A stretch of DNA of 25,831 nucleotides from an uncultured Cloacibacillus sp. GTDB lineage: Bacteria > Synergistota > Synergistia > Synergistales > Synergistaceae. The DNA lies in assembly GCA_900545755.1 (NCBI GenBank), contig URAG01000032.1, positions 1-25,831 on the forward strand, in the 5' to 3' direction. The number at the start of each line of letters is the position of its first letter. The stretch's first letter is position 1. Below the pieces are notes generated by a model, which was given only the letters and a program-made list of their open reading frames with translations, was not told the origin of the DNA and ran no database searches. The translations under genes were made by a program, and so were the position numbers. Shown here piece after piece: positions 15,510 to 25,653 of the stretch.

Positions 15510-15860
15510 TTACAGAGCCGCGCGCGCCTTCTCCACGAGCTGGGCGAACGCCGGGGCGTCGTTCACCGCGAGGTCGGCGAGCATCTTGCGGTTGATGGTG
15601 ATGTTGGCTTTCTTGAGGCCGTTGATAAGCGCGCTGTAGGCGATGCCGTTGGCGCGGGCGGCCGCGTTGATACGGATGATCCACATCTTACGGAAGTCGC
15701 GTTTTCTGTTCTTGCGGCCTGCAAAGGCGCTCGTCAGCGCGTGCAGATAAGCTTCGCGAGCGCGGCGGTAGACGTTCTTCTTACGTCCCCAGAATCCTTT
15801 CGTAATGCTGTACAGCTTCTTATGTTTATTGCGGCTGGCGCTTGAACCCTTTACTCGCAT
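15510..15860 (-). CDS. rplT: 50S ribosomal protein L20
   Basis: L20 is a 23S rRNA-binding protein needed early in 50S assembly and, in several bacteria, represses the infC-rpmI-rplT operon. The 116-residue product has the family length. Hallmarks: [16 protein letters not shown] (usually MRVKxGxxxRxRHKK), [33 protein letters not shown], and [21 protein letters not shown]. The ATG at 15860 is preceded by AAGGAG at good spacing. It is the third gene of the conserved order infC-rpmI-rplT. Confidence 0.98.
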
Positions 15861-16153: not shown

Positions 16154-16813
16154 TTATATCTGGTCTGCATCAGGCAGGACGTTCTTCTTGACCTTCTGCG
16201 GCTTAGCTGGAGCGGGCTGAGTCTGGGCGGAAGTCTGCGTTTCCTCCGCTGGCTTCTGCTGCTTTTTCTGCGCCTGCTTCTTCGTCTGAGAATCGGAAGC
16301 CGGCGCTATCATAATACGCATATAAGCGCCTTCCATGCGCGGCTCCATCTCAATTTTGCCGTAGTCGGAGACGGCGTCGAGCACCTTGTTCAGCACGTCG
16401 CGTCCCCTGTCGAGGAAAGCCATCTCGCGTCCGCGGAAGAATATCGAGACCTTGACCCTATGTCCCTCCTCAAGAAAGGACTTGATAGCCTTGACCTTGA
16501 ATTCGTAGTCGTGCAGGTCTATCTTCGGACGCATTTTGATCTCTTTGACGACCTGGTTCTTCTGCTTTTTTCTGGCGTCCTTGTCGCGCTTCTGCTGCTG
16601 GAAACGGTATTTGCCGTAGTTCATTATTCGGCATACCGGCGGTTTAGCCTGCGGCGCTACTTCTACGAGATCCAGCTCCGCCGCCTCGGCCAATTTAAGC
16701 GCTTCCTGAATGCTGACGACTCCGCGTTTTACATTCGACTCATCGATGAGAAGAATTTCCGGGCATCTTATCTCGGAATTTACGCGCGGTTCGTCCTCTT
16801 TTGGATTTGCTAT
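16154..16813 (-). CDS. infC: Translation initiation factor IF-3 with an apparent AUA start
   Basis: IF-3 binds the 30S subunit, checks the initiator tRNA and start codon, and prevents early 50S joining. The reading gives 219 residues: the N-domain (VNSEIRCPEILLIDES through LDLVEVAPQAKPPVCRIMNYGKY), a linker, the C-domain (VKEIKMRPKIDLHDYEFKVK to RIMIAP), then a 48-residue Lys/Gln/Ala/Pro-rich tail (172-219) absent from E. coli IF-3 (180 residues). The frame has no ATG, GTG or TTG before residue 41, which would cut off the N-domain. The ATA at 16811-16813 is nine bases after a perfect AGGAGG, and the family pattern of non-standard infC starts (AUU in E. coli) supports it. Such a start makes IF-3 limit its own synthesis. 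Confidence 0.93.
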   Translation of the reverse strand: MANPKEDEPRVNSEIRCPEILLIDESNVKRGVVSIQEALKLAEAAELDLVEVAPQAKPPVCRIMNYGKYRFQQQKRDKDARKKQKNQVVKEIKMRPKIDLHDYEFKVKAIKSFLEEGHRVKVSIFFRGREMAFLDRGRDVLNKVLDAVSDYGKIEMEPRMEGAYMRIMIAPASDSQTKKQAQKKQQKPAEETQTSAQTQPAPAKPQKVKKNVLPDADQI

Positions 16814-16828
16814 GGCATTACACCTCCT
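16810..16828 (-). promoter_or_regulatory. infC initiation region: Shine-Dalgarno, AUG-CCA-UAG minimal frame and overlapping AUA start
   Basis: On the minus strand AGGAGGT (16822-16828) is followed by ATG (16816-16818), CCA and TAG (16810-16812). The TAG overlaps the ATA (16811-16813) that opens the IF-3 frame by two bases. The ATG is four bases and the ATA nine bases after GGAGG. A ribosome starting at AUG would make only fMet-Pro and stop on top of the infC start. This could be a decoy or a re-initiation device; the arrangement is seen directly, its role is inferred. Confidence 0.75.
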
Positions 16829-16841
16829 GATAAAATTCTAC

Positions 16842-16881
16842 AAATAAAAAAGTCCGGGCGCATACTAGAATGCACTCGGAC
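16842..16881 (-). terminator. Intrinsic terminator (attenuator) in the infC leader
   Basis: On the minus strand GTCCG-A-GTGCAT pairs with ATGCGC-C-CGGAC around a six-base loop TCTAGT (an 11-bp stem with one A/C mismatch and one G-U pair) and is followed at once by TTTTTTATTTG. It lies just 14 bases before the infC Shine-Dalgarno core, so it is an attenuator of the infC operon rather than an end for hppA. Confidence 0.85.
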
Positions 16882-16977
16882 CTGAAATTTATCTCTTCAG
16901 GGGCAAGCCCGGCAGCAAGCTGAACCGACGGGCGAGAGGCGCATTCCTCTGCTTGAACCCATTGACCTTAGTCAACT
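16843..16977 (-). ncRNA. Structured 5' leader of infC-rpmI-rplT (putative r-protein or IF-3 operon leader)
   Basis: About 135 bases of leader carry a series of stems, given here on the minus strand in transcription order: TTGAC/GTCAA (16962-16975), AGAGG/CCTCT (16935-16950), GCCCG/CGGGC (16907-16933, with an inner CGG/CCG extension), CCTGAA/TTCAGG (16881-16901), then the terminator. CCGGGC at 16907-16912 is a perfect complement of GCCCGG at 16854-16859 in the terminator's 3' arm, so an antiterminator fold is possible. In Bacillus, an L20-binding leader controls this operon by attenuation; this element may be an analogue, but I cannot match it to that family by sequence. It has no T-box AGGGTGGNACC motif. 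Confidence 0.6.
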
Positions 16978-19125: not shown

Positions 19126-20667
19126 TTAGAGCGGAATGTTGCCGTGCTTACGCGCAGGGCGCTGCTTTTTCCTGCCCCAGAACATGCGGAGCGTCTGGAT
19201 TATCTTTTTCCTCGATTCCGCGGGCTCTATAACGTCTTCGAACTTTCCGAGCTCCGCGGAGCGGTAGGGGTTGAGGAACTCGTCCTCGTACATTTTCTTG
19301 TACATTTCCCTCGCCGCTGCCGGGTCGGCCGCCTGCTCTATCTCGTTCTTGTAAAGCACCGCGACCGCCGCGTCGGCTCCGACGACGGCGCGCTCGCAAG
19401 TCGGCCACGCCATTACGAAATCAGCGTGCATATCTATGCTGCACATCGCGGGCGTAGCGCCGCCGTAGGATTTGCGTATCGGCATGATGATCTTCGGCAC
19501 AGTAGCCTCGGCCCAAGCGTAGAGCATCTTAGCGCCGTGACGGATGATGCCGTCGTGTTCCTGCTGGACGCCGGGCAGATAGCCGGGTACGTCCACTATC
19601 GAAAGGAGCGGGATGCTGAAAGCGTCGCAGGTGCGGATGAAGCGCGCCGCTTTGCACGAGGCGTTGATGTCGAGGCATCCGGCCATGCAGCCTGTCTGGT
19701 TGGCGACGACGCCGACCGGCATTCCGCCCATACGGACGAAGCCTATTATTATGTTGCGCGCATACATCGGCGAGATCTCGAAGAAGAAATTATCGTCTGC
19801 GATTTTCGTGATGATGCTCTTCATGTCGTAGGACTTGCGCTTGTTGTCAGGGATGATGTCGTTGAGTTCTTCTATTCTGCGGTTCACATCGTCGTCGCAC
19901 TGGTAGACCGGCGGCATCTGCGTGCAGTTGTCGGGGAAGAAGCCGAGCAGGCACTTAATCTGCGCGATGCAGTCGTAGTCGTCGCGCGCGACTAGCTGGC
20001 AGAGGCCGGACTTCGTGCTGTGCGTCGCGGCTCCGCCGAGCGTCTCGAGATCGACAACTTCGCCAGTCACCTGCTGGATGACTTTCGGCCCCGTTATGAA
20101 CGCTTTGCTGGTCTTGTCCACCATTATGACGAAGTCTGTGAGTGCCGGCGAGTAGCAAGCCCCGCCAGCGCAGCTTCCCATGATAGCGGAAATCTGCGGT
20201 ATGACGCCAGACGAGTTGACGTTGTTGTAAAAGACTGTGCCGTAGACCGACGCGCCAGGCCCCTCCTGGAGGCGGCCTCCGCCCGAGTCGTTGAGCCCTA
20301 TGATCGGGACGCCGGCTTCGAGCGCGAGTTCCTGCATTCTCGCGAGCTTCAGGCCGTGCATCTCGCCCATAGAGCCGCCGAGAACCGTCGCGTCCTGCGA
20401 GTAGACGAAAGCTTTTCTTCCATTGATGAGGCCGTGCCCTGTGACGATGCCGTCGGCTGGCGCATCGACCTTATCCATGCCGAAGCGGGTCGCACGCGGC
20501 TTAACGAACATATTGTACTCGACGAAGGTGCCGGGGTCGAAGAGCAGATCGACGCGCTCTCTAGCGGTCAGCTTGCCGTTGGCATGCTGCTTATTGATCC
20601 TCTCCTGCCCGCCCTGAAGCATGATATGCGCTTTCAGATCAAGCATAGTCTGAAGACTTTGATTCAT
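19126..20667 (-). CDS. mmdA: Acyl-CoA carboxyltransferase, methylmalonyl-CoA decarboxylase alpha / propionyl-CoA carboxylase beta type
   Basis: A 513-residue biotin-dependent carboxyltransferase of the MmdA/PccB family with its usual two crotonase-like halves. The N half has HANGKLTARERVDLLFDPGTF and the oxyanion region LNDSGGGRLQEG; the C half has NQTGCMAGCLDINASCKAARF, VDVPGYLPGVQQEHDGIIRHG and KSYGGATPAMCS. It moves the carboxyl of methylmalonyl-CoA to or from a biotin carrier. In anaerobes the MmdA form works with a Na+-pumping beta subunit, but no biotin carrier or membrane subunit is in the window. The ATG at 20667 is preceded by GGGAG; the longer open frame upstream is a Gly/Arg-rich shadow of the promoter region. 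It is split from the amidohydrolase gene by a terminator, so it may be a separate transcript. Confidence 0.9.
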   Translation of the reverse strand: MNQSLQTMLDLKAHIMLQGGQERINKQHANGKLTARERVDLLFDPGTFVEYNMFVKPRATRFGMDKVDAPADGIVTGHGLINGRKAFVYSQDATVLGGSMGEMHGLKLARMQELALEAGVPIIGLNDSGGGRLQEGPGASVYGTVFYNNVNSSGVIPQISAIMGSCAGGACYSPALTDFVIMVDKTSKAFITGPKVIQQVTGEVVDLETLGGAATHSTKSGLCQLVARDDYDCIAQIKCLLGFFPDNCTQMPPVYQCDDDVNRRIEELNDIIPDNKRKSYDMKSIITKIADDNFFFEISPMYARNIIIGFVRMGGMPVGVVANQTGCMAGCLDINASCKAARFIRTCDAFSIPLLSIVDVPGYLPGVQQEHDGIIRHGAKMLYAWAEATVPKIIMPIRKSYGGATPAMCSIDMHADFVMAWPTCERAVVGADAAVAVLYKNEIEQAADPAAAREMYKKMYEDEFLNPYRSAELGKFEDVIEPAESRKKIIQTLRMFWGRKKQRPARKHGNIPL

Positions 20668-20739
20668 TTGACCATTCTCCCTATAGGCGGGACGCGAACG
20701 GGAAGAGAGGTTCCGCGCTCCGCGCCGCAAAAATTTGGA

Positions 20740-20760
20740 TAAATTTTATAAAAAGTGAAA
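20740..20760 (-). promoter_or_regulatory. Candidate promoter core for the carboxyltransferase gene
   Basis: An A+T-rich stretch after the terminator contains TATAAA on the minus strand (20745-20750), 78 bases before the ATG. No good -35 hexamer is seen at 16-18 bases, so the call is weak and rests on position and composition. Confidence 0.3.
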
Positions 20761-20786
20761 AACGCCGAAAAGTTGCGCCGTACCGT

Positions 20787-20823
20787 CAAAACGCGCCGCG
20801 CGCGTTACGGCTGCGCGCGGCGC
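20787..20823 (-). terminator. Intrinsic terminator after the amidohydrolase gene
   Basis: GCGCCGCGCGC and GCGCGCGGCGC (20793-20803 and 20813-20823) form a perfect 11-bp all-G/C stem with a nine-base loop. On the minus strand it is followed by GTTTTGAC (T tract 20788-20791), 22 bases after the amidohydrolase stop. It probably ends or reduces transcription of the acyl-CoA cluster before the carboxyltransferase gene. Confidence 0.75.
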
Positions 20824-20844
20824 TTAAAGCTTTCGCTTTGTTTA

Positions 20845-21837
20845 CTACATTAACCCTTTCCACGGGCTGAGGTCGAGTCCGCACTTCTCGAAGCGCTCGC
20901 CGAGGAAGTTGAGCGCATTCTTGTACATGACCTTCTCCATGATGCCCGGTCTCAGGTCGAGCTCTTCCCACTCCTTGAGTATCTCGCTGAGCTTGAAGAC
21001 GCCCCACTCTGAGCCGAAGATGAACTTGTCCTGGAGACGGCGGTTCATCTCGTAAAGCATGCACTGCGGGAAGTACTTCGGCCACATGCCGGAGGTTTCG
21101 CGCATGACGTTCGTCTTGTGCATAGCGACATGGTTGATGACTTCGGGCCACGGCTCGCCGACGTGGAGCGCGATTATCTTGAGGCGCGGGAACTCCGCCG
21201 CCACTTCGTCGACGTCGAGAGGCTGGCAATAGGTCATGCTGTAGAGGCCGTCGCCGCCGGGCGCCCCGCTGCCCATTCCGGTATAGCCGATGTGGAACTG
21301 AACAGGCGCGCCGAGCTGCTGGCAGAGATCCCAGAGCGGGAAGAAGCGGCGGTCGTTGACGCGGAACTTCTGAGTGCACTGCTGGAACTTAAGGCCTATG
21401 AGCTTGAGGTCTACGAGCGCATGCTCAGCCGCATGAAGAGCCTGCTGCCCCTGCCACGGGTCTACAGAGCCCCATGCGCCGAAGAACGAATCAGGGAACT
21501 GCTGCCAGAGGCCGTGGACGAACTCGTTGCTTGTCGGCGGCTCGCCCATTCCGCTCGTCGCATCCCACGCGACGGGCTGCATCTTGACGCCGTGGGTTTT
21601 AGCGTCGTTCGCCATTACCTCCGGCCCTGTCTCGTCGAACTCGGCCTTGAGATCCTCAAGCGTCGCGTTGCCGGACTTGCCGCGCCAGTTGGGCTGGGTG
21701 TATTTTCTCGAAGCGAGCATCGCGTTCATTGCCGGCGGATATCCTCCGCGGATGAACGGATGCGCGTGTATGTCTATTATCTGGAATCCTCTTTCTTCAG
21801 GAGTTTTAGGTGTTCTATCTCCAGCTGCTATAGCCAT
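20845..21837 (-). CDS. Amidohydrolase_2 (ACMSD-type) family enzyme, substrate unknown
   Basis: A 330-residue TIM-barrel metal enzyme of the amidohydrolase-related group that includes ACMSD and other C-C-cleaving or decarboxylating members. Metal-site elements: DIHAHPF on strand 1 (D22, H24, H26), FHIG (H182) on strand 5, ALHVG (H225) on strand 6, and FGSEWG at the strand 8 position. There the usual Asp of GSDWP-like motifs is a Glu (E277). GLKFQQ (148-153) is also family-like. The ATG at 21837 has GGGGAG eight bases upstream. It lies 41 bases after the BadI/MenB-like gene and ends the cluster before a terminator. Context argues for decarboxylation or hydrolysis of a beta-keto or cyclic carboxylate rather than an amide, but the reaction is not known. 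Confidence 0.85.
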   Translation of the reverse strand: MAIAAGDRTPKTPEERGFQIIDIHAHPFIRGGYPPAMNAMLASRKYTQPNWRGKSGNATLEDLKAEFDETGPEVMANDAKTHGVKMQPVAWDATSGMGEPPTSNEFVHGLWQQFPDSFFGAWGSVDPWQGQQALHAAEHALVDLKLIGLKFQQCTQKFRVNDRRFFPLWDLCQQLGAPVQFHIGYTGMGSGAPGGDGLYSMTYCQPLDVDEVAAEFPRLKIIALHVGEPWPEVINHVAMHKTNVMRETSGMWPKYFPQCMLYEMNRRLQDKFIFGSEWGVFKLSEILKEWEELDLRPGIMEKVMYKNALNFLGERFEKCGLDLSPWKGLM

Positions 21838-21878
21838 AAATCATACTCCCCTTTCAAAAATTATCTGCCGTCAGAATT

Positions 21879-22664
21879 TTAACGGTATTTCGCAACGTCG
21901 GGCGTCCGCTTTTCGCGGAAAGCCGCGCCGACTTCCTTCGCCTCTTCGGTGCCGTAGTAAACGCCGAGCGCGACGCCGGCCATCGACTGCACTCCCCAGA
22001 GCGCGTCGGTGTCGGCGTTGAACGACGCCTTGAGCGCCGCAAGCGCTGTCGGGCTGTTATTTACTATCTCGTCGACCCATTTATCGGTCTCTTCAAGCAG
22101 TTTGTCAGGCTCTACGACAGCGTTGACGAGCCCCATCTTAAGGCAGTCGTCGGCGCTGTACTTGCGACAGAGGTACCACATCTCGCGGGCTTTTTTCTCT
22201 CCGACTATACGTGCGAGGTAGGCGCTGCCGTATCCGGCGTCGAAGGTGCCGACCTTAGGCCCTACCTGGCCGAATTTTGCCGTGGACGAGGCTATCGTGA
22301 GGTCGCAGACGACCTGGAGCACGTGGCCTCCGCCTATCGCGTAGCCGTTGACTGCGGCTATGACCGGCTTCGGGATGTTGCGTACCGTTGTGAGAAGCTG
22401 TGCGAAGAGGCTGACCATCGGAAGCTTCTCGACGGGCGCGGCGTCCTCTGCAACCTCGGCGGGCGTACCGCCTATCGTAAAGGCACGGTTTCCGGCTCCG
22501 GTGAGTATAATAGCGCCGACTTCTTTATCGCTCCACGCGCTCTGGAGGGCCGTTATCATCTCGACGAGAGTGCGTTGGGTGAACATGTTCATCGCGTCGG
22601 GACGGTTGATAGTTATCCTGGCTCTGCCGTTGTACTTCTCGTAGATTATATCTTTGAATTCCAT
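21879..22664 (-). CDS. MenB/BadI-like crotonase superfamily protein
   Basis: A 261-residue crotonase-fold enzyme closest by eye to BadI (2-ketocyclohexanecarboxyl-CoA hydrolase) and MenB, not to ordinary enoyl-CoA hydratases. The N-terminus MEFKDIIYEKYNG and INRPDAMN match that branch. GYAIGGGHVLQVVCDLTIAS (108-127) gives one oxyanion glycine. FGQVGPKVGTFDAGYGSAYL (131-150) has the Asp (D142) conserved in BadI/MenB, and VYYGTEE (235-241) the conserved Tyr. The usual CSGGD loop reads TIGGT (63-67). BadI opens an alicyclic beta-keto-acyl-CoA ring by a retro-Dieckmann hydrolysis, and MenB runs the reverse. AGGAGGGG precedes the ATG at 22664. The acyl-CoA context fits a CoA-thioester ring opener; menaquinone synthesis is less likely as no other men gene is near. 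Confidence 0.85.
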   Translation of the reverse strand: MEFKDIIYEKYNGRARITINRPDAMNMFTQRTLVEMITALQSAWSDKEVGAIILTGAGNRAFTIGGTPAEVAEDAAPVEKLPMVSLFAQLLTTVRNIPKPVIAAVNGYAIGGGHVLQVVCDLTIASSTAKFGQVGPKVGTFDAGYGSAYLARIVGEKKAREMWYLCRKYSADDCLKMGLVNAVVEPDKLLEETDKWVDEIVNNSPTALAALKASFNADTDALWGVQSMAGVALGVYYGTEEAKEVGAAFREKRTPDVAKYR

Positions 22665-22684
22665 TTCAATCCCCTCCTGTTAAG

Positions 22685-22714
22685 CTGTGCGCCGGGAGGT
22701 AGGCCGGCGCACAG
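22685..22714. repeat. Perfect 11-bp hairpin between thiolase and crotonase genes
   Basis: CTGTGCGCCGG and CCGGCGCACAG pair perfectly around an eight-base loop. On the minus strand it follows the thiolase stop and ends five bases before the crotonase ribosome-binding site. No T tract follows, so it is probably an mRNA processing, stability or translational element. Its core TGTGCRCCGG is shared with the hairpin at 19042-19068. Confidence 0.7.
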
Positions 22715-22737
22715 GATGTGTGGAGATGGTGCAGAAA

Positions 22738-23922
22738 CTACACTCTGATTATGAACGCTTCGCTCTCGCCGACTCCGCCGCATATGGTGCAGAGTCCGTA
22801 GCCGCCGCCGCGGCGCTGGAGTTCGTAAGCCATCGTCATAACGAGGCGTCCGCCGGTGGCTCCGGTCGGATGTCCTATCGCTATCGCTCCGCCGTTGATG
22901 TTGGTCTTCGCGCGGATGGCTTCAACCTTGGCCGGGTCGTTGTCGCCGAGGAGTATCGTCGATGCGAGCGGCATGACAGCGAAGGCTTCGTTGATTTCAA
23001 TGACGTCCATCTGGTCGATGGTCATTCCGGCTTTGGCGAGAGCCTTCTGTGCGGCGAAGGCGGGGATGGTCGCGATGTATTTCGGGTGTCCAGAGGCCTG
23101 CGCGTGGGCGACTATCGTCGCAAGCGGCTTGACGCCGCGGCGCTTGGCTTCGCTCTCAGCCATGAGGACGAGGGCGCTCGCCCCGGTGTTGAGTCCAGGG
23201 GCATTGCCAGCGGTTACGGTCGGGCTTCCGTTGACGGTCTTAAGCTTCGCGAGCCCTTCAAGCGTCGTGTCGGGGCGCGGCTGCTGGTCGTCGGTGATGA
23301 CGACGTCGCCCTTCTTGGTCTGGATGGTGTAGGGCTTTATTTCATCCTTGAACTTGCCGGCCTTGAAAGCCTCCTGGTAGTACATCTGGCTGCGGTAGGC
23401 CCACTCGTCCTGCATTTCACGGGTGATTCCGTACTGGAGCCCGACTTCACCGGCCTGCTTCGCGCGCGGCTCGCCGGTGTAGGGGCAGGATACTACCATG
23501 ATGTCTTTGAGGACGACGTCGCCCATGCGCTTGCCCCAGCGGAGGTCTTCAAGGAAGTAGGGGACGTTGCTCATGTTCTCGGAGCCACCGCCGACGGTGA
23601 CCTTCGCCTCGCCGAGTTCGATGGCGCGCTTCGCCATCGCTATAGCGACCATCGAGGAGCAGCATGCACGGTCTACCGTGGTCGAGTTAGCCTCAGGCGG
23701 CATGCCGGAAGCGAGGGAGATCTGGCGCGCTATCGAACGGTTCGCCGTCGGCATGTTGATGCCTATGTAGGTCTCCTCAACGTCTGCGGGATCTACCGCG
23801 GCGCGCTCCATAGCCTCTTTGACTACGAAGGAGCCGAGCTTTACTGTGTTTTCGCCTTTCATTACTCCGCCGAATTTATCGAACGGGGTGCGGACTGCGG
23901 ATACGATGACTACGTTTTCCAT
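22738..23922 (-). CDS. Thiolase (acetyl-CoA C-acyltransferase family)
   Basis: A 394-residue degradative/biosynthetic thiolase. The N-terminus VVIVSAVRTPFDKFGG is standard. The nucleophile Cys lies in VDRACCSSMVAI (C87), where most homologues read NRLCGSGLQA, so a second Cys replaces Gly. INEAF, GHPTGATGGR (H351) and TICGG (C381) supply the other active-site residues. The ATG at 23922 is chosen over a TTG two codons upstream because GGGG is nine bases before it. It should cleave a beta-ketoacyl-CoA to acetyl-CoA and a shortened acyl-CoA, or work in reverse. It sits between a class III CoA-transferase and a ring-opening-type crotonase, which points to a catabolic role. Confidence 0.93.
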   Translation of the reverse strand: MENVVIVSAVRTPFDKFGGVMKGENTVKLGSFVVKEAMERAAVDPADVEETYIGINMPTANRSIARQISLASGMPPEANSTTVDRACCSSMVAIAMAKRAIELGEAKVTVGGGSENMSNVPYFLEDLRWGKRMGDVVLKDIMVVSCPYTGEPRAKQAGEVGLQYGITREMQDEWAYRSQMYYQEAFKAGKFKDEIKPYTIQTKKGDVVITDDQQPRPDTTLEGLAKLKTVNGSPTVTAGNAPGLNTGASALVLMAESEAKRRGVKPLATIVAHAQASGHPKYIATIPAFAAQKALAKAGMTIDQMDVIEINEAFAVMPLASTILLGDNDPAKVEAIRAKTNINGGAIAIGHPTGATGGRLVMTMAYELQRRGGGYGLCTICGGVGESEAFIIRV

Positions 23923-23955
23923 TTTCAATATCCCCTTTTGTATATAAAGCTTCGG

Positions 23956-25164
23956 TTATATGGCTTTCTTGTCGTGGAGCTCTTTTATCTTTTCGTCGCT
24001 GTAGCCGATTTTCTTGAGGACCTCGTCAGTGTCCGCGCCGAGGTTCGGAAGCGGCCTGTATGTCGGCTCGTGCTCTTCCATCTTTATCGGGCAGCCAACC
24101 ATCGAGATCTTGCCGATGATCGGGTCAGGCAGCGTGACTATCATCTCGCGCTTCTTGGTGTGCTCGTCGTGCGCGACGTCCTCGGAGTTCTGTACCGGGC
24201 CGCAGGGAAGTCCCTGAGCCATGAATATCTCGCAGGCCTCGACCTTCGTCTTGTCAGCAAGCCATTCGTTGATTATCGGACGGATGAGCGTCTCCATGTA
24301 CTTGCCGCGTCCCGGACCGGACTGAATCTCGGGGTTCTCAAGCAGTTCGAGATGTCCGATGGCGGTAAGGAACTTCTTCCACATAGACTCAGTCGGAACG
24401 ATGATTGCGACGTAGCCGTCCTTGCACTTGAACGGTCCCCACGGGGCGATGAGTTTGTCCGGGCCTCTCGTGACGACGTTGCCGGTGAAGGCGTATACGT
24501 TATGCGAACGCTCGGCGAGCGCGACCATGCAGTCGTACATCGAGACGTCGAAGTATTCGCCCTTGCCGGTGCGGAGCTTGTTTACATAGCCGAGCATTGC
24601 GGCGTATGCGGCATAGACGCCGGTGCCGGAGTCGCCGAGAGCGAAGCCGAGCCATGTCGGCGGTCCCTGCGGGTCGCTTCCGCAGGTGTACATGAGGCCG
24701 GCCATAGCCTGAGCGATGATATCGTAAGCGAGGCGCTTCGCGTATGGGCCCTCATGTTTCTTGGAGCGTCCGAAGCCGCTTATCGCGACGTAAATGAGTC
24801 CGGGGTTGACCTCTTTGATTTTCTCATAGGTGAAGCCGAGCTTGTCCATAAGGCCGGGCTTCAGGTTCTCGATTACAATGTCGGCCTCTTTGATGAGATC
24901 CCAAAGGACAGCCTGGCCGTCCGCAGACTGCATGTCGACCGTGATGCTCTTCTTGCCGCGGTTGAAGCGCGCAAAGTAGCCGCTCTGCACTCCGCCGTCT
25001 TCGCTTTTAAGAAGCGGCGCCATCTCGCGAGCGGTATCTCCCATACCGGGACGCTCAACCTTGAGCACTTCGGCTCCCTGGTCGGCGAGCATCATGGTGC
25101 AGGTCGGCCCTGCAACCTGCTGCTCAAGACCGAGGACCTTTACTCCGTCAAGTATTCCTTTCAT
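23956..25164 (-). CDS. Class III (CaiB/BaiF) CoA-transferase
   Basis: A 402-residue family III CoA-transferase. Visible family elements are GLEQQVAGPTCTMMLADQGAEVLKVERP near the N-terminus, NRGKKSITVDM, IENLKPGLMDKLG and ISGFG. The probable catalytic Asp is D148 in LAYDIIAQAMAGLM, the position that forms the acyl-anhydride with substrate. WLGFALGDSGTGVYAAYA follows, and the smaller C-terminal domain includes PNLGADTDEVLKKIGYS. It exchanges CoA between an acyl-CoA donor and an acid, which suggests it activates the cluster's substrate. GGGAGG precedes ATG 25164, 36 bases after the B12 subunit gene. The substrate cannot be told from sequence. Confidence 0.93.
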   Translation of the reverse strand: MKGILDGVKVLGLEQQVAGPTCTMMLADQGAEVLKVERPGMGDTAREMAPLLKSEDGGVQSGYFARFNRGKKSITVDMQSADGQAVLWDLIKEADIVIENLKPGLMDKLGFTYEKIKEVNPGLIYVAISGFGRSKKHEGPYAKRLAYDIIAQAMAGLMYTCGSDPQGPPTWLGFALGDSGTGVYAAYAAMLGYVNKLRTGKGEYFDVSMYDCMVALAERSHNVYAFTGNVVTRGPDKLIAPWGPFKCKDGYVAIIVPTESMWKKFLTAIGHLELLENPEIQSGPGRGKYMETLIRPIINEWLADKTKVEACEIFMAQGLPCGPVQNSEDVAHDEHTKKREMIVTLPDPIIGKISMVGCPIKMEEHEPTYRPLPNLGADTDEVLKKIGYSDEKIKELHDKKAI

Positions 25165-25200
25165 GTAGTTTCCTCCCTTATTGCTTCTCTATTTATTTGC

Positions 25201-25653
25201 CTAGATGTTTGACGCCTTGTTCGTCATGTCCTGCGCGGCGTTCTCCGCGAGGTCTTCGGCCTTCGCCATCGCGATCTGCTCGAAGGTGAAGTCGACTACT
25301 TCGTCAAGCGGCGTTCCGGGGCCGAAGACTCCGCTTACGCCCTTTTCCATGAGCGCGGGGATGTCCTGCTGCGGGATGATGCCGCCGAGGATGAACACTG
25401 TCTTGTCCATGCCTTCTTTGGCCTTTACCTTGTCGATGACCTTCGGCATGAGCGTGTTGTGCGCGCCGGAGAGAAGGCTTACGCCGACTGCGTCGACATG
25501 TTCTTTTTCAGCGATGTCGGCTATTTCGTCCGGCGTCGCCTGAAGGCCGGTGTAGATGACTTCGGCTCCGGCCTCTTCGAATGCGCGGGCGACTACCTTC
25601 GCCCCGCGGTCGTGGCCGTCAAGTCCGGGTTTTGCTATCAAAACTTTTACCAT
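25201..25653 (-). CDS. B12-binding subunit of a split acyl-CoA mutase
   Basis: A 150-residue stand-alone cobalamin-binding domain equal to the C-terminal part of methylmalonyl-CoA mutase. LIAKPGLDGHDRGAKVVAR contains the DxHxxG signature (D12, H14, G17), whose His is the lower axial ligand of cobalt. VGVSLLSGAH and ILGGIIPQQD bind the nucleotide tail. About 25 Asp/Glu/Ala-rich residues at the C-terminus extend beyond the core. The gene follows the large subunit with its ribosome-binding AGGAGG directly after that gene's stop (TAAAGGAGG), so the two are translationally linked. Split mutases isomerise methylmalonyl-, isobutyryl-, 2-hydroxyisobutyryl- or ethylmalonyl-CoA; the small subunit cannot tell which. 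Confidence 0.95.
   Translation of the reverse strand: MVKVLIAKPGLDGHDRGAKVVARAFEEAGAEVIYTGLQATPDEIADIAEKEHVDAVGVSLLSGAHNTLMPKVIDKVKAKEGMDKTVFILGGIIPQQDIPALMEKGVSGVFGPGTPLDEVVDFTFEQIAMAKAEDLAENAAQDMTNKASNI

Follow-up and report, generated by a model that had tools for sequence, protein, structure and literature searches.

At which codon does translation of infC begin in this DNA, and does a tiny AUG frame that overlaps the apparent start have any part in it? The window (here, the whole stretch of 25,831 nucleotides that was analysed) carries infC on its minus strand at 16157..16813, with the stop codon at 16156-16154. This gives 219 codons, if these are counted from an AUA. Behind the same Shine-Dalgarno (SD) site, and overlapping that AUA, lies the two-codon frame ATG-CCA-TAG. 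A reading of the letters made before any database was searched (below, the sequence-only reading) had proposed that infC starts at the AUA, that IF-3 regulates its own synthesis through this poor codon, and that the AUG frame supplies a second layer of control. The first two proposals have held up, the second as a likely analogy with other bacteria; the third has not.

The protein itself is easily recognized. Pfam places an IF3_N domain at residues 11-80 and an IF3_C domain at residues 88-171, and the NCBIfam equivalog model TIGR00168 spans residues 6-172 with 210 bits against a cut-off of 60. Among solved IF-3 sequences, the three best matches begin their alignments at query residues 11, 11 and 9. 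With both domains present, and a score well above that of the NCBI equivalog cut-off, the infC frame is translation initiation factor IF-3. Downstream of infC, on the same strand, lies an ORF (15510..15860) that resembles rplT, the gene for L20, by eye in the ORF list. The same by-eye reading finds, on the minus strand at 19126-25653, a run of ORFs that resemble genes of acyl-CoA metabolism, including a carboxylase, a hydratase, a thiolase, a CoA transferase and a B12-binding subunit.

The start codon is less obvious. As the sequence-only reading had noticed, the IF-3 frame offers no standard start before residue 41, where a TTG at 16693 is the earliest, and this codon lies inside the N-domain. 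No ATG, GTG or TTG stands in frame in the window between the upstream stop, nine codons before the AUA, and residue 41. The N-domain, in turn, reaches back towards the AUA (IF3_N from residue 11, TIGR00168 from residue 6), again as proposed. The AUA occupies 16811..16813 of the minus strand, and the frame continues from it into GCA AAT CCA. Upstream, the core SD AGGAGG (16828-16823) is followed by TGTA, making an extended SD, AGGAGGT, at 16822..16828 (AGGAGGTG with the next base). AUA as the start of infC in the window is well supported because no canonical codon is available in frame from the upstream stop to residue 41. The locus thus has what marks an infC initiated without AUG: an N-domain lacking a canonical start, and a conserved AUA at the usual distance from its SD. 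ORF callers that admit only ATG, GTG and TTG, of course, cut 40 residues off IF-3 here, as the window's own ORF list did.

The two-codon frame occupies 16810..16818 of the minus strand (ATG at 16818-16816, CCA at 16815-16813, TAG at 16812-16810), and its TAG has two bases in common with the AUA. The letters and the overlap are all as the sequence-only reading gave them. Its distances need one correction: the ATG does follow AGGAGG by 4 nt, but the AUA lies nine bases after AGGAGG, not after AGGAGGT, from which it is 8 nt away. A structure that hides the start site was considered as well and discarded, as three folds around the SD and the AUA were no stabler than shuffled sequence (z of -0.67, 1.35 and 0.04).

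Do relatives start infC in the same way? Of the relatives, the best is a metagenome-assembled genome of Candidatus Caccocola faecipullorum, which matches at 91% in the best tblastn segment and at 97% over 184 columns; NCBI places the genus Caccocola in the Synergistaceae, phylum Synergistota. The comparison was drawn from that phylum. The search for infC covered 185 Synergistota genomes and found a match in 171. The 150 loci compared below come from 149 of these genomes and the window, with 22 of the 171 matching genomes outside the sample. An early comparison of the spacer and the AUA in relatives used 43 of 80 matching loci.

To assign start codons, a script chose the codon with the best SD match, with a preference for a distance of 8-10 nt. 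So assigned, the 150 inferred starts are AUA at 97 loci, ATT at 22, TTG at 29, and GTG and ATG at one each. Thus, AUA or ATT is the inferred start at 119 of the 150, with TTG, GTG or ATG assigned instead at the remaining 31. The single GTG (L156) and the single ATG (L190) stand behind weak SD matches and are possibly misassigned; weak SDs also occur at two TTG loci (L211, L215) and at one AUA locus (L143). The loci that start with ATT are L102, L103, L105-L109, L112, L113, L115-L121, L123, L124, L127, L131, L165 and L173. The 29 apparent TTG starts fall within L171-L226 (for example L171, L177, L198 and L210), mostly behind AAGGAGG. At five AUA loci (L166, L172, L174, L189, L207), ATA and TTG adjoin in frame, an arrangement that resembles an intermediate between AUA and UUG.

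Among the 118 AUA or ATT loci for which the surrounding frame was tested, 61 have an in-frame stop no more than four codons upstream. Half of the 118 (59) have no canonical start anywhere from the upstream stop, or from the end of the fetched sequence, to codon 12. The other 59 have a canonical codon in frame either upstream or within 12 codons downstream, mostly far upstream or as a GTG valine codon at residues 9-11. TTG lies two codons before the ATT at some ATT loci; at a few AUA loci, a GTG precedes the AUA by three codons or a TTG adjoins it.

The AUA lies exactly 9 nt from the GGAGG register at 88 loci. Numbering backwards from the AUA, GGTG at -11 to -8 is invariant across these 88 loci, as is the AUA, and AGGTG at -12 to -8 is found in 86. 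The bases just before the AUA are also far from random, with G at -3 in 80 of 88, a pyrimidine at -2 in all 88, and a pyrimidine at -1 in 86; these three positions (G-Y-Y) are more constrained than -7 to -4. As judged from these alignments, it is well supported that the Synergistota join the bacteria known for non-AUG infC starts, here through AUA. Starts at AUA or AUU, those at AUA behind a near-invariant extended SD, would fit a widespread feedback of IF-3 on its own start.

What counts as an ordinary distance was taken from 400 kb of one relative (G136), in which one SD-supported start, and no more, was found for 97 of the 268 long ORFs. From the GGAGG register, 55 of these 97 starts lie at 7-9 nt, nine at exactly 9 nt and three at 4 nt, in a sample biased, by that requirement, towards genes that bear an SD. 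A stricter set, limited to ATG behind GGAGG, gives 9 nt in 6 of 53 and 4 nt in 1 of 53. GGAGGTG occurs in only 5 of the 97 SD-supported genes. Thus the SD of the window is unusually long; the AUA follows it at close to the normal distance, and the AUG at a short one that is rare. The AUG would presumably be little used, owing to its 4-nt spacing.

Taken together, this is very probably an ordinary autoregulated infC start, built of a poor codon, an extended SD and a probable L20 leader, with an incidental AUG that has no selected role. The extended SD (AGGAGGTG) would place ribosomes 9 nt before the AUA, where initiation would be inefficient. IF-3 would discriminate against the AUA, so that a drop in IF-3 would raise IF-3 synthesis, and the probable L20 leader upstream would add control at the level of the operon. 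The AUG, 4 nt past the SD, would have arisen by drift at a spacer base free of constraint, and the UAG would be a by-product of an AUA followed by a second codon that begins with G, leaving a two-codon frame without a selected role. Comparison among the loci has established, as far as sequences can, the AUA start, the unusual strength of the SD, and an AUG that varies freely and stands at chance level. The feedback by IF-3 and the control by L20 are taken from other bacteria. The available text of PMC5472188 describes how IF-3 regulates itself through an infC start other than AUG, which is ATT in E. coli and ATC in Streptomyces; by that analogy, start-codon autoregulation is the likely reason for the AUA here.

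The leader calls for some care. A permissive scan matched the Rfam L20 leader (RF00558) at 16840..16960 of the minus strand, where a terminator-like hairpin and a run of U lie just upstream of the SD. The match has 35.4 bits (E 2.4e-05) against a gathering score of 58.7. At gathering thresholds, Rfam has 0 matches in the whole window, and by this cut-off the element falls outside RF00558. Seven of 18 relatives have the leader at E<=0.01, with 36.1-47.3 bits, all under gathering; in the other 11, which include the window's two nearest relatives in the IF-3 tree (L081 and L082), a search of 61,822 bases gave nothing at this level. The window's element shares with the Rfam leader its position before infC, and it matches the full model (1-127); it differs, together with the seven matching relatives, in scoring under the gathering cut-off. 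Transcription of the operon is thus probably, not certainly, L20-controlled as well. Synergistota L20 leaders may have diverged to form a branch of their own within the family.

The account in which the AUG is incidental must, of course, be weighed against one in which the two-codon frame does something. Ribosomes might start at the AUG, terminate at the UAG, and then either be lost (the frame acting as a decoy, or as a site of dipeptidyl-tRNA drop-off) or restart at the AUA. The geometry invites this idea, with a stop and a start that overlap by two bases behind one SD, and precedents exist for its parts. In E. coli, start-stop overlaps allow a ribosome to terminate and then begin again in the proper frame, in a manner that depends on RF2 (PMC9841429, in its accessible portions), and a two-codon minigene acts in cis on txe (PMC8708949, likewise). 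Further, the window shares its ATG with L081 and L082. A functional frame would give the textbook IF-3 feedback loop a second input.

The comparison speaks against conservation of the AUG. The base at -4, which makes the AUG, is the most variable near the start: the 88 AUA loci have T in 27, C in 23, G in 20 and A in 18, and its entropy is 1.98 of 2 bits (57 distinct 21-mers). An ATG at -5 is seen in 12 of the 88 loci, against 11.35 expected when column -4 is shuffled (P(>=12) = 0.47). Among the 57 distinct sites it is seen in 5, against 6.27 expected. Nor is any canonical NTG enriched at -5 in these loci (20 of 88, against 19.0 expected). In the window's own clade of 22 rows, ATG is present in 10 (the window, L081, L082, L084, L087-L091, L100), against 10.5 expected from column frequencies in the 21 rows without an insertion. 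The 12 rows without it have ACG in seven (L010, L092-L095, L097, L099), ATA in three (L083, L086, L096), AGA in L098, and TTA with a one-base insertion in L085. Beyond this clade, only two of the 88 loci (L142, L182) have ATG at -5. Conservation of AUG-NNN-stop beyond chance, which would mark a regulatory two-codon minigene, was thus found neither across the 88 loci nor within the clade, an outcome that the sequence-only reading had itself listed as refuting.

Rates of change tell the same story. On an IF-3 tree of 34 rows, in which 10 of 30 inner branches are open, six end branches are long, and L114 and L128 (both near the window's clade) are absent, -4 changes eight times, the most of any position from -12 to +8, and the ATG appears or disappears six times. 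For third codon positions of infC the median is 9 changes (interquartile 7-11), and for 25 pure fourfold columns it is 11. The rate at the base that makes the AUG is therefore close to that of third codon positions, and slightly below that of fourfold columns. An out-of-frame ATG also occurs at -7, in five loci, where it opens frames of 4 or 8 codons; no fixed two-codon design is therefore indicated. The UAG needs no selection to explain it, because an AUA followed by a second codon that begins with G is enough to create it. The 4-nt spacing is rare, although it does exist (the three of 97 starts in G136). From these comparisons, the two-codon frame is most likely incidental, and its AUG bears no sign of selection; a regulatory role for it is very improbable.

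A narrower version confines the role to one lineage. The ATG is retained in the window, L081 and L082, and in 7 of 11 rows of the window's poorly resolved subclade. In this ATG-keeping branch, which is Caccocola- or Synergistes-like, an AUG start, a UAG stop and a restart at the AUA might be a lineage-specific input besides discrimination by IF-3. This, too, we consider very unlikely.

Alternatively, the out-of-frame stop over the AUA (AUAG or AUAA) might itself be selected, with or without an AUG, as a device that returns ribosomes from the wrong frame to the AUA. Such an action is reported for the A4 start-stop overlap of E. coli (PMC9841429, accessible portions). An overlapping stop stands at 85 of the 88 loci, those in which a purine follows the AUA, and in 80 the purine is G. 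Ordinary G136 genes have a purine there in 72 of 97 and G in 28 of 97, and the excess of G (80/88 versus 28/97) is a real difference in counts. However, the 88 loci are related, so that these counts are not independent; second codons for alanine (54 of 88) and valine (at least 23 of 88) explain most of the excess; and the feature is absent from ATC- and TTG-initiated infC loci. Given the kinship of the loci and the prevalence of Ala or Val as second codon, the overlapping stop is read, without proof, as a by-product. Selection for such a stop has little probability.

Last, an error of sequencing or assembly might have destroyed a normal ATG start, from which the infC frame differs by phase alone; this is exceedingly improbable because relatives in separate assemblies share the spacer length and the AUA (L084, on a 3.5-Mb contig, has both, and L083, on a 3.6-Mb contig, has AUA at equal spacing), and AUA stands at 97 of the 150 loci.

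How does this arrangement compare with known systems? The sequence-only reading held the combination to be undescribed, and a literature search, which left most subscription papers out of its reach, found no account of the exact AUG-CCA-UAG/AUA arrangement. Its components (AUA-initiated infC, two-codon minigenes, reinitiation at start-stop overlaps) each have a published precedent. Ribosomal drop-off near the N-terminus followed by reinitiation is described at low IF-3, or where codon and anticodon pair poorly (PMC10158994). As far as their accessible text goes, infC is not the subject of PMC9841429, PMC8708949 or PMC10158994. The AUGUGA and GUGUGA overlaps of E. coli likewise place the stop of a short frame over a true start behind a single SD, but there the two starts are canonical and 2 nt apart, whereas in the window 5 nt separate the AUG, which is unconserved, from the AUA (PMC9841429, in part). 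The axe-txe minigene is also a two-codon AUG frame ahead of a regulated start; unlike the frame in the window, which shares the SD of infC and overlaps its start, it sits ahead of the SD that serves the gene itself, and measurement showed that it raises txe expression (PMC8708949, in part).

The closest likenesses are other infC genes. Those of E. coli and Streptomyces likewise combine a good SD with a start codon that IF-3 discriminates against; they use AUU and AUC, while the window has AUA, and feedback here is drawn by analogy (PMC5472188, in part). An AUA-initiated infC as such is already known from S. aureus, where Ribo-Ret (ribosome profiling with retapamulin) found the start at an AUA with an extended SD, and where extended SD motifs accompany non-canonical starts (PMC13009471, in part). 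That gene belongs to another phylum, and the accessible portions of the report do not mention an adjoining AUG frame. In its codon, its gene and its extended SD motif, however, it matches the infC of the window.
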